IMG/VR virus record: IMGVR_UViG_3300042485_000202
Coordinates: 1-20,224 of that record
Origin: a virus
DNA: 20,224 bases
Direction: 5' to 3' (one strand)
In this document: piece after piece, positions 3,565-5,889 of the stretch
Layout of the letters: each line of letters opens with the position of its first letter
Numbering within the stretch: position 1 is the first letter of the stretch
The notes under the pieces: generated by a model
Databases searched by the model: none
Told to the model about the DNA's origin: nothing
What the model saw: the letters and a program-made list of their open reading frames with translations, nothing else
Translations under genes and position numbers: made by a program

Positions 3565-4130
3565 ATGAAATTGTTATTGACACCGGAGCAGGTGTCAAAC
3601 CGGCATTACAAATTACTCCACTACCCTTGTTTGGTGATGACCATCCATTGATGCATACTGAAATGCCTGAATATGATGTTGGTACATTACCAAACCATGA
3701 AATGTCGATTTTAACACAACGATTGAAAATGACAATGAAGTTGTACAGTGGTATTGGTTTGTCAGCTAATCAATGTGGTGAAAGAAAGAGGGTGTTTGTT
3801 ATTGGTACGGACCAATTTCAAATCGTGTGTATCAATCCTAAAATTGTAGGCAGTACAAGTAACATTGTGAAACAGAAAGAAGGATGCCTATCTTATCCCG
3901 GATTATTCCTCAAAATACCTAGATATGATTCAGTTCAAGTAGAATTCTATGATGAGAATGGTAACAAACAAACAGTTTATCTTGATGGTATAACTGCACA
4001 ATGTTTCCAACACGAATTAGATCATATGAACGGTATCGATTTTACTGAACATGCTGGGCCAGTTCAATTACAGTTGGCAAAACAGAAACAAAGTAAGTTG
4101 GTTAAGAAAATTAAAAGAGCTAAACAATAA
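3561..4130 (+). CDS. def: Peptide deformylase
   Basis: A 189-residue polypeptide deformylase, which removes the N-formyl group from new proteins using a bound metal. The three family motifs are present: GIGLSANQ (64-71; consensus GxGLAAxQ), EGCLS (107-111, metal ligand Cys109) and QHELDH (150-155, metal ligands His151 and His155, catalytic Glu152). About 25 extra residues precede the usual start of the fold, and the basic tail ends in KKIKRAK. Phage-encoded deformylases are known in T4-like phages of marine bacteria, where they are thought to support fast maturation of particular proteins late in infection; which substrates apply here is unknown. The start overlaps the gp46 stop by ATGA, and the stop overlaps the next start by TAATG. 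Confidence 0.93.
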   Translation: MNEIVIDTGAGVKPALQITPLPLFGDDHPLMHTEMPEYDVGTLPNHEMSILTQRLKMTMKLYSGIGLSANQCGERKRVFVIGTDQFQIVCINPKIVGSTSNIVKQKEGCLSYPGLFLKIPRYDSVQVEFYDENGNKQTVYLDGITAQCFQHELDHMNGIDFTEHAGPVQLQLAKQKQSKLVKKIKRAKQ

Positions 4131-5461
4131 TGAGTAAAGTGCCAGACATTGAGGTTCAATGGCAACAATGGCAGGATGAAAATCCTGCTTCTTCTTTCTA
4201 TCAGATTGAAGAGAATGAGTTGCGTGAAAAGATCATCAAAGACTTATCTTATGTGTCACAGATGGATGTTAAAGAATATACTTTATACCAAAAATGGTGT
4301 GAAGTACATGAGAAGTATCCTACTGTAACCAATCGCACCGTATTTGGTGATGATGAACATTTTTTGGTGGATCCATCGCAACAAGTATTGATTGATTCGG
4401 TCAAGTCAAATATTTGGGTCCCGAACACATATGATGATTATAAGGATTTGGAACCAGTTTTGGAATATACCGATGATTCTGGTTCCACAACTTCAACAAC
4501 ATATGATGGTTCGGAGATTGTTGTTGATAAGAAAAGAACCAAAGATAAACCTGAAATGTGGAATACTGCACGGACATTTATCTCCACGATGAAGAACAAT
4601 AGTAACATTGGTCGCAACCTGAATTTTATGGTAAAAGATAACAAATCAGGATCATATCTTGGTGTCATTTGTATCTCATCCGATTTTCTTGACTTAACTC
4701 CAAGAGATGAAGTCATTGGTTGGCCTAGAGAACTGAAGACACAAGGTGGCATGATTAATCATACTGCAATCGGTTCAACGATTGTTCCTTTTCAACCACT
4801 TGGTTATAATTATGTTGGTGGCAAATTACTTGCTTTGTTATGTTTGTCTGATGAAGTGCAGAGATTGTGGAAAAAACAATACGGTGATGTTTTAGTTGGT
4901 ATTACCACCACTTCACTGTATGGTAAAACAAAACTGAATGGCCTCTCCCAATACGACAACCTAGATCATTGGCAGAAGATGGGATTCACTTCAGGTTCTG
5001 TTGCATTTGAACCGTCGAGGAATACTCGTTACTTGGTCCGTGAGTGGTTGAAAATTAACCATACAAGAAAATACTTTGAGTGGTATGCTGCAAAGAAATC
5101 TTCAGGGCAACCATACAAACGTGATCATAAGAATCGTTCTTTAAATTTTACTTATTCAAAACTTAGTATACCTAAAGAGATGATTCGTACCGAACATGCA
5201 AGAGGAATTTATTTTAGTTCATTGTATAACAACACATATGAATTTCTCCGTGGTGAAATTAAAGAAGACCAGTTGGTTAAGACCTTCGATAGTTCATATG
5301 ATGCACTTGTTAAACTTTGGAAAGAAAAGCATGCTATTGGTCGAATCAAACAGCTTGTTAAGAAAGATAAAGTTTCCTATGAATCTCTTTTCTATGACGA
5401 TCTTGTGTTCATGGATTGGGAAGAAACCAAAGGCAAATATCTAGGTCAAGTTGGGCGATAA
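4130..5461 (+). CDS. DUF4338 (DruA-like) protein
   Basis: A 443-residue protein whose C-terminal two thirds match my recollection of the DUF4338 family, the domain found in DruA of the Druantia anti-phage system. The characteristic block runs from GSYLGVICISSDF (174-186) through LTPRDEVIGWPRE, NHTAIGSTIVPFQPLGYNYV and GGKLLALLCLSDEVQRLW, then GDVLVGITTTSLYG (252-265). The first 140 residues are acidic and tryptophan-rich and look like a separate N-terminal part with no family I recognise. A serine/threonine-rich stretch (SGSTTSTTYDGS, 117-128) may be a linker. The biochemical function of DUF4338 is not established. The gene is TAATG-coupled to the deformylase and nuclease genes, not placed in a defence cluster, which suggests a role in phage DNA metabolism or counter-defence. 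That role is inference. Confidence 0.75.
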   Translation: MSKVPDIEVQWQQWQDENPASSFYQIEENELREKIIKDLSYVSQMDVKEYTLYQKWCEVHEKYPTVTNRTVFGDDEHFLVDPSQQVLIDSVKSNIWVPNTYDDYKDLEPVLEYTDDSGSTTSTTYDGSEIVVDKKRTKDKPEMWNTARTFISTMKNNSNIGRNLNFMVKDNKSGSYLGVICISSDFLDLTPRDEVIGWPRELKTQGGMINHTAIGSTIVPFQPLGYNYVGGKLLALLCLSDEVQRLWKKQYGDVLVGITTTSLYGKTKLNGLSQYDNLDHWQKMGFTSGSVAFEPSRNTRYLVREWLKINHTRKYFEWYAAKKSSGQPYKRDHKNRSLNFTYSKLSIPKEMIRTEHARGIYFSSLYNNTYEFLRGEIKEDQLVKTFDSSYDALVKLWKEKHAIGRIKQLVKKDKVSYESLFYDDLVFMDWEETKGKYLGQVGR

Positions 5462-5491
5462 TGAAAATAAGCGCTTGATTTTTGACCTAGA
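5440..5491 (+). repeat. 11-bp inverted repeat spanning DruA-like stop codon and promoter
   Basis: TCTAGGTCAA (5440-5449) and TTGACCTAGA (5482-5491) are exact inverted copies, extended inward by one G-T pair (5450/5481). The left arm is the 3' end of the DruA-like gene. The right arm lies inside the promoter spacer, and the -35 box sits just inside the loop. A smaller palindrome, AAGCGCTT (5469-5476), is in the loop. No T tract follows, so this is not a standard terminator. Confidence 0.7.
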
Positions 5492-5504
5492 GAGCATATA
5501 TAAT
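5475..5504 (+). promoter_or_regulatory. sigma70-type promoter for the tRNA-like RNA
   Basis: TTGATT (5475-5480) and TATAAT (5499-5504) are separated by 18 bases. Transcription would start near 5511, about 12 bases before the acceptor stem of the tRNA-Gly-like RNA. Confidence 0.6.
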
Positions 5505-5522
5505 TGTATGAAGTAAAAAAAT

Positions 5523-5588
5523 GCGGGGTGTCTGAGACAGTTTTTCTCCCAAGAAGAATAGACGGTTTAATTCCCTAACCCCGCTCCA
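5523..5588 (+). tRNA. tRNA-Gly(CCC)-like RNA with shortened D arm
   Basis: The 5' arm GCGGGGT (5523-5529) pairs perfectly with ACCCCGC (5578-5584) to make a 7-bp acceptor stem, followed by T as discriminator and an encoded CCA (5586-5588). The loop CTCCCAA (5546-5552) has the canonical T33 and A37 around anticodon CCC (5548-5550), on a weak 5-bp stem, TTTTT/GAAGA, with two G-U pairs. GGTTTAATTCC near the 3' end mimics the T loop. G1-C72 and U73 are typical of bacterial tRNA-Gly, and the 3' half resembles E. coli tRNA-Gly(CCC). Departures from a normal tRNA are clear: only 11 bases lie between acceptor and anticodon stems, enough for a 3-bp mini-hairpin (CTG-AGA-CAG) but not for a normal D arm, and two of five T-stem pairs are mismatched. 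It may be a functional minimal tRNA, a decaying tRNA, or a tRNA mimic. Confidence 0.6.
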
Positions 5589-5595
5589 AATTCCT

Positions 5596-5628
5596 GAGGG
5601 TGTTGTTTAAAAGCAACACTCTTTTTTT
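5596..5628 (+). terminator. Rho-independent terminator after the tRNA-like RNA
   Basis: GTGTTG pairs with CAACAC around the loop TTTAAAAG. Outer G-U, G-C and A-U pairs lengthen the stem, and a run of seven T residues (5622-5628) follows. It lies immediately downstream of the tRNA-like RNA and 6 bases before the next -35 box. Confidence 0.85.
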
Positions 5629-5634
5629 ATTGCC

Positions 5635-5662
5635 TTGACTTGTAGGCCAGTTGTGTTATACT
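5635..5662 (+). promoter_or_regulatory. Promoter of the 67-aa ORF, with extended -10
   Basis: TTGACT (5635-5640) and TATACT (5657-5662) lie 16 bases apart, with the extended -10 element TGT just before TATACT. The 15-base core TTGTGTTATACTGGT (5651-5665) is repeated exactly at 5892-5906 in the next promoter. Confidence 0.7.
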
Positions 5663-5685: not shown

Positions 5686-5889
5686 ATGGATACAATTCAG
5701 TTCGCCCCCACAGAAGATTATTCCCACACATTGTTGGAACAACAGGAAATGCACTATATTTCTTGTGTCCATGATGTTCTGGATGCATTTCAGAATCACG
5801 GTATTAAAGATATCCTTAGTGAAGTCTGTAAGAATCCTCAATTAAATCAACAGCTTACCGAGTATATAAAGAGCTTGCAATCTAAGTAG
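5686..5889 (+). CDS. Small protein of unknown function
   Basis: This 67-residue protein is not recognised. It starts at an ATG with a strong ribosome-binding site (AGGAGAT) and has its own promoter, so it is very likely expressed. The sequence is predicted to be mostly helical: an acidic N-terminus (MDTIQFAPTEDY), a central stretch CVHDVLDAFQNHGIKDILSEV and a glutamine-rich tail. It has two cysteines but no paired-cysteine motif, no signal peptide and no membrane segment. The gene lies between two nearly identical promoters, just before the CobT-like gene. Small, separately promoted early genes in T4-like phages are often host-takeover factors, but nothing in this sequence tests that. Confidence 0.7.
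   Translation: MDTIQFAPTEDYSHTLLEQQEMHYISCVHDVLDAFQNHGIKDILSEVCKNPQLNQQLTEYIKSLQSK

Follow-up and report, generated by a model that had tools for sequence, protein, structure and literature searches.

The question raised by this locus is why a phage would keep a 66-nt RNA that has the ends of a tRNA-Gly and lies just downstream of a gene for a 443-aa protein. The stretch analysed here, referred to as the window, is a whole IMG/VR viral record of 20,224 bp from a T4-like phage. The sequence-only reading of this DNA had proposed a stand-alone tRNA-Gly-like RNA selected for a non-decoding role, such as a decoy for tRNA-targeting defences, with a recently decayed tRNA as the simple alternative. 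The explanation favoured here, with slightly more belief than doubt, is that the RNA may act outside the ribosome, as a glycyl-tRNA reserved for the GNAT-like DruA-family enzyme encoded upstream, possibly for DNA modification. The features concerned are as follows.

4130-5461, plus strand: druA-like gene, 443 aa, presumed enzyme partner (Pfam DruA/DUF4338, GNAT-like core)
5475-5504, plus strand: sigma70-type promoter, TTGATT-18-TATAAT
5523-5588, plus strand: mini tRNA-Gly-like RNA of 66 nt, encoded CCA included
5523-5529, plus strand: 5' strand of the acceptor stem, GCGGGGU, forming 7 bp with 5578-5584
5530-5538, plus strand: micro D hairpin GUC-UGA-GAC, 3 bp (5530-5532/5536-5538) with a 3-nt loop, GG absent
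5541-5558, plus strand: anticodon arm with anticodon CCC, either a 7-bp stem (5541-5547/5552-5558) closing CCCA or a 5-bp stem with the 7-nt loop CUCCCAA
5561-5577, plus strand: T-like arm GACGG-UUUAAUU-CCCUA, UUC motif absent
5578-5588, plus strand: 3' strand of the acceptor stem (5578-5584), U73 (5585) and CCA (5586-5588)
5596-5628, plus strand: intrinsic terminator of the RNA, 12 pairs and a T-run

Every element of the RNA was found at 5523-5588, where the sequence-only reading had placed it, including the perfect 7-bp acceptor stem, U73 and the encoded CCA, the anticodon loop CTCCCAA at 5546-5552, the T-loop-like stretch GGTTTAATTCC at 5564-5574 and the 11 nt separating the acceptor and anticodon strands. 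The two T-stem mismatches it described were located at 49-65 (G.A) and 51-63 (C.C), with three of five T-arm pairs present in the window clade compared with five of five in most relatives. Two of its claims held in part. The normal D arm is indeed gone, yet an arm is not absent, being reduced to the 3-bp hairpin supported by covariation. Similarly, a 7-nt anticodon loop with U33 is possible in the window RNA, whereas it is impossible in the even-length arms of relatives, and the stem can also lengthen to 7 bp closing CCCA, as relatives do. With a 3-nt D loop (UGA) and the T loop UUUAAUU, the RNA has no G18G19/T54 T55 C56 elbow. Glycyl-tRNA synthetase (GlyRS) recognises its tRNA through the identity set G1-C72, C2-G71, G3-C70, U73, C35 and C36, and this set is complete in the window RNA.

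Standard tools do not detect this RNA. ARAGORN found no tRNA in the window, the mini RNA included, Rfam at gathering thresholds gave no match, RF00005 had none on the local stretch even at E<=10, and Rfam with relaxed thresholds returned chance matches only. Used as nucleotide queries against named phages, the RNA region and the entire window matched nothing or only unrelated sequence. Two covariance models built from relatives only, with the window excluded, both matched 5523-5588 (R1, 47.8 bits, E 1.5e-10; R2, 24.1 bits, E 4.2e-5), so that the RNA is far beyond a chance match. The minimum free energy fold of the window RNA alone is not a cloverleaf (-20.3 kcal/mol vs -17.6 for the comparative structure), so its structure rests on comparison, not on folding.

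Relatives were gathered via the proteins of the 443-aa gene upstream and a 765-aa gene downstream. In 87 of 98 distinct related loci, a homologous RNA lies in the gap between these genes; 84 were found by pattern, two are truncated and one has base 2 changed. The sequence CCGCTCCA occurs in all 84 pattern-found, gene-selected relatives, plus one more with altered base 2, and ARAGORN recognised none of the gap RNAs of relatives. Family members are 63-70 nt long, often unrelated in sequence apart from their ends, and fall into structural types by T loop (UUUAACU, UGCGAAU, AGCAAAG and UGAAACU). The 118 distinct short forms parsed, a few of them spurious, share one layout. The acceptor stem has 6-7 bp and is followed by a 3-bp micro D hairpin, whose loop is mostly 3-5 nt; the anticodon arm then spans 5-8 bp, 0-3 nt of variable region lead to a 5-bp T arm, and the 3' end reads UCCA. 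Loci with false matches to the mini pattern (L187, L231, L243, L272, L339 and similar) were excluded from the feature counts, which cover 115 RNAs. Tandem pairs of mini RNAs were observed beside a single druA at L150, L152, L153, L154, L156, L157, L162 and L190, some with two T-loop types, and in L038 and L039 an extra perfect hairpin, GCGGTGATTA..TAATCACCGC, lies directly 5' of the RNA and repeats its GCGGTG end.

As MAFFT puts arms in the wrong place when every RNA type is aligned jointly, covariation was examined in separate ungapped sets (A3 and A5). Among 63-mers, 11 pairs changed on both sides compared with 5.9 in shuffles, the cells numbered 50 compared with 14.7, and no shuffle reached either value; among 67-mers, 10 pairs were double-sided vs 4.9 in shuffles. 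Among 57 aligned members, each of the three pairs in the D hairpin shows changes on both sides, in an alignment fitted to the model and therefore leaning towards it, with the variants GTC/GAC, GTT/AAC, GTG/CAC, GTA/TAC and AGT/ACT seen in relatives. The 7-bp stems of the anticodon arm covary as well, and a check of the acceptor stem showed that positions 5-6 covary while positions 1-4 (GCGG/CCGC) are constant. Judged by this comparison, the window RNA is a member of a diverse, strongly covarying family of short tRNA-Gly-like RNAs. A full-length tRNA-Gly in relatives, with random decay in the window, was looked for; what the relatives carry are equally short, covarying forms, which supports the proposal of a stand-alone RNA selected for a non-decoding role.

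The flanking signals differ in how well they hold up. The hexamers of the proposed promoter are by themselves no better than chance in the window (7 found, 7.4 expected), yet 55 of 148 relatives have a TTGA/T..TATNNT pair ahead of the RNA, compared with 2.3 in shuffles. The strong terminator at 5596-5628 was confirmed. Further downstream, a conserved 67-aa ORF (window 5686-5889) has its own promoter-like site and is retained where druA and the RNA are lost.

The 443-aa protein matches PF14236 with an E of 7e-19 and 68.5 bits (cut-off 27), and PADLOC assigns it to DruA. It thereby resembles DruA of Druantia type I (DUF4338); unlike in Druantia, the window gene belongs to the phage core region and has an RNA as its partner, and druBCDE were not recognised among its neighbours in the window. 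An AlphaFold2 model (pLDDT 86.8) has GNAT acetyltransferases as its top Foldseek matches in the PDB, with probabilities of at most 0.93 and weak E-values (best 0.08, about 0.1), and these weak matches include TacT with acetyl-glycyl-tRNA-Gly. Folds related to GNAT include the aminoacyl-tRNA-using Fem transferases; a Fem-family match was found in none of the six window proteins scanned. DUF4338 has independently been described as a GNAT domain (PMC10853773). A profile search found no close homologues of the protein in bacterial genomes, and a sequence search of the PDB found none.

The linkage between RNA and enzyme was assessed without bias by an RNA-only pattern scan using the RNA's own 3' half, which found 106 short-form loci, four of them cut too close upstream. 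In 100 of the other 102, druA lies on the same strand at most 1.2 kb upstream, and in one more at 1.35 kb; the 102nd, L339, is not a true member and was set aside in the adjacency count. RNAs of the UGC type are often not adjacent to druA, and druA was found elsewhere in all six tested contigs above 15 kb with true mini RNAs; in G004, a 17.5-kb fragment with a mini RNA, it was not found. The contigs of 50 kb or longer that had been picked through their flanking genes have a mini RNA or aberrant tRNA-Gly in 14 of 14 with druA vs none of three without it, counted with kinship ignored; in several druA-positive fragments below 50 kb no such RNA was found. Part of the linkage could be shared synteny.

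Enzyme and RNA are also lost together. Two loci, L091 and L086, match the window at 87-88% identity in the region downstream of 5600-5627 but have neither druA nor the RNA; L091, whose alignment to the window starts at 5600, retains a remnant of the terminator hairpin. Between the deformylase gene and the small gene, genes for a 147-aa GNAT and a 523-aa protein with a DNA-methylase (N6_N4_Mtase) domain occupy the slot instead, and in L143 the slot is likewise replaced by GNAT and N6_N4_Mtase genes. As druA and the RNA are jointly absent and the slot is refilled in relatives, the two come and go as one cassette. The GNAT and N6_N4_Mtase-like pair (L091:657-2668 and L143:716-2880) may itself be another DNA modification system. 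On the druA tree, RNA types swap at least 15 times, and such an interchange of structurally different RNAs beside similar enzymes is expected if only the charged end matters.

Outside the short forms, the picture is more varied. Two complete druA-positive pelagiphages without the mini form carry an aberrant tRNA-Gly(ACC) 4-7 kb downstream of druA on the same strand: in HTVC008M (KC465899.1, 91140-91213, plus strand) it has the T loop AGCGUUA and is the sole tRNA found, and in Mosig EXVC030M (MT647606.1, 7779-7852, minus strand) it has the T loop GGCAGUA, lies outside the annotated tRNAs at 91.6-92.0 kb and is missed by RF00005 even at E<=1. Both are absent from the annotated features seen, and A34 is rare for bacterial tRNA-Gly. 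Among cyanophages with distant druA homologues, S-SSM7 and S-T4 showed no mini RNA, and S-SCSM2R only an ordinary tRNA-Gly. Some druA-positive phages without the mini RNA share a small GC-rich hairpin, TGCG-N5/6-CGCA, in the same intergenic slot (L410:7139-7165 and L411:7687-7712), and this hairpin is seen just after druA in L042, L045, L049 and L059 as well. An exception to the pattern is a tRNA-Gly(ACC) with the T loop TTTAAAT and a D loop without GG (G046:C1:11555-11629), in a 211-kb phage with 74 tRNA matches and no druA match. A strict link between GTGC T-loops in normal-sized tRNA-Gly and DruA was tested and rejected, as it does not hold generally (5 of 35 records, for the most part fragments).

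Comparing which tRNA features are kept and which are lost gives an indication of function. The acceptor GCGG/CCGC, U73 and CCA are constant in the family. Among RNAs selected by neighbour genes only, all 34 odd-length arms have NCC at the centre of the anticodon arm (18 UCC, 12 ACC and 4 CCC), and all 22 even-length arms have CCCA or CCCC; position 34 is never G in the family. These kept features are what bacterial GlyRS reads. Lost, in turn, are the TTC T-loop (0 of 115 RNAs), U33 (present in only 28 of 62 odd-length arms, often replaced by G) and the symmetric 7-nt anticodon loop, which even-length arms rule out in 53 of 115. Members selected by RNA were picked partly by T-loop, and the gene-selected set shows the same loss of features. 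Selection thus seems to retain the part that would be charged with glycine and to release the part that would work on the ribosome. A published study describes the discriminator base as also governing how the DTD deacylase treats glycyl-tRNAs (PMC6097841).

From these features, it could be proposed that the host GlyRS charges the mini RNA via the GCGG/CCGC acceptor, U73 and C35C36, and charging with glycine is likely. The charged RNA would then escape EF-Tu and the ribosome, its use in translation being poor for lack of a normal anticodon loop and of the elbow formed by D loop and T loop, and would serve as a dedicated glycyl donor for the DruA-family enzyme encoded just upstream. Donation of glycine to DruA has, in our judgement, a little better than an even chance of being correct.

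A precedent for diverting glycine in this way exists in staphylococci, where non-proteinogenic tRNA-Gly species have G18G19 replaced and carry the weak EF-Tu pairs A49-U65 and A51-U63, so that glycine is diverted to FemXAB for the bridges of peptidoglycan (PMC4052509). Like these cell-wall tRNAs, nearly all members of the phage family lack GG in the D loop. A51-U63 is the commonest 51-63 pair in the family (61 of 115), with A49-U65 in 38 of 115; the window RNA has mismatches at both positions. The staphylococcal T-loop GUGC may resemble the phage TGCGAAT type. In contrast to the staphylococcal tRNAs, the RNAs are phage-encoded, 63-70 rather than about 75 nt long, have a micro D arm and a 7-bp or tetraloop anticodon arm, and are linked to druA, not to Fem ligases. 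The simplest reading may be a phage version of the staphylococcal glycine diversion.

The likeliest acceptor would be phage DNA, in a Mom-like base modification against restriction, although another macromolecule is possible. DNA is suggested by the methylase-like nature of the alternative cassette and by Mom of phage Mu, a GNAT-superfamily enzyme that modifies adenine, acylating it at N6 with glycyl-CoA as the proposed donor (PMC7824862). The 443-aa protein has no detectable sequence similarity to Mom (PF25680), and hhalign of DruA with Mu Mom gives a probability of 0.2 on a 0-100 scale, the two falling into different Pfam families (PF14236 and PF25680). With no sequence link between DruA and Mom, the step to a DNA target is put forward tentatively, and that DruA moves glycine from a ribosome-excluded mini tRNA onto DNA bases is a speculation we hold to be rather doubtful. 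One cyanophage record labels its DruA homologue 'methylcarbamoylase mom'. We know of no dedicated RNA for Mom, and in the freely accessible literature covered no report was found on Mom or DruA with glycyl-tRNA, nor on DruA, Mom and tRNA together.

Other explanations have to be weighed against a glycyl donor. The RNA may be a decoy or mimic that sequesters a tRNA-targeting nuclease or toxin of the host, or its GlyRS; or DruA may modify host glycyl-tRNA, as TacT-type GNAT toxins do, with the mini RNA regulating or evading it. The tRNA-like ends and own promoter fit such roles, as do the weak Foldseek matches that include TacT, but a decoy for anticodon nucleases should retain the normal anticodon loop that the family loses, and a decoy needs neither the tie to druA nor the joint loss with it. 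The GlyRS-marking features kept, together with the tie to a GNAT-like DruA, favour an aminoacyl donor over a decoy, so that the decoy proposed earlier gains no specific support and is unlikely, if worth keeping in view. Alternatively, DruA could use the RNA uncharged, as a structural cofactor or for targeting, with the tRNA shape an ancestral scaffold only. While this would agree with the tight linkage and the structurally reduced body, it leaves unexplained why the glycine identity set and CCA are kept as the rest varies, and why RNA types are interchangeable, making it distinctly unlikely.

It is more improbable that the RNA is an unusual working elongator tRNA-Gly supplementing GGN decoding. 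tRNAs are frequent in phages, the NCC anticodon is always retained, and reduced mitochondrial tRNAs (D-armless or short D-loop tRNA-Ser) share the small D region and extended anticodon stem; yet these decode with adapted factors, whereas the anticodon loops of the phage RNAs are broken and the RNAs are linked to an enzyme. Even-length arms with CCCA or CCCC loops, a frequent G at position 33, the absent elbow contacts and the lack of G34 also speak against decoding. Moreover, ordinary tRNA-Gly occurs elsewhere in the same genomes or directly beside the mini RNA: G037 and G038 have 23 and 28 ordinary tRNAs in ARAGORN clusters far from it, including tRNA-Gly(UCC) in both and tRNA-Gly(GCC) in G038, and at ten loci an ordinary tRNA-Gly is no more than a few hundred bases from the mini RNA. 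The mini RNA is thus predicted to be unnecessary for decoding. Ordinary phage tRNA-Gly, some genes of which adjoin mini RNAs, is probably their ancestor; it differs in having TTC T-loops and GG D-loops and in being detected by ARAGORN. A recently decayed tRNA-Gly, for which the two T-stem mismatches of the window clade would speak, is rejected as highly improbable: the distinct short forms number over 100 and covary, CCA and the anticodon core stay the same among them, promoter and acceptor stem are retained, and the druA partner is nearly constant.

The glycyl-donor reading would have several consequences. It comes with a widespread RNA family, the 118 short forms, which escapes both ARAGORN and the Rfam tRNA model, and it provides the DruA/DUF4338 family with a concrete biochemical hypothesis, that of an aminoacyl-tRNA-using GNAT. 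A direct prediction follows for the isolated phages HTVC008M and Mosig, whose DNA is suited to mass spectrometry. If DNA is the target, tRNA biology would be joined to phage DNA modification, with a suggested source for a glycine-derived base; to our knowledge, no earlier case of aminoacyl-tRNA-dependent DNA modification has been described, and this would be the first if true. Transfer of glycine to DNA, if true, would also hint at the role of DruA in Druantia.
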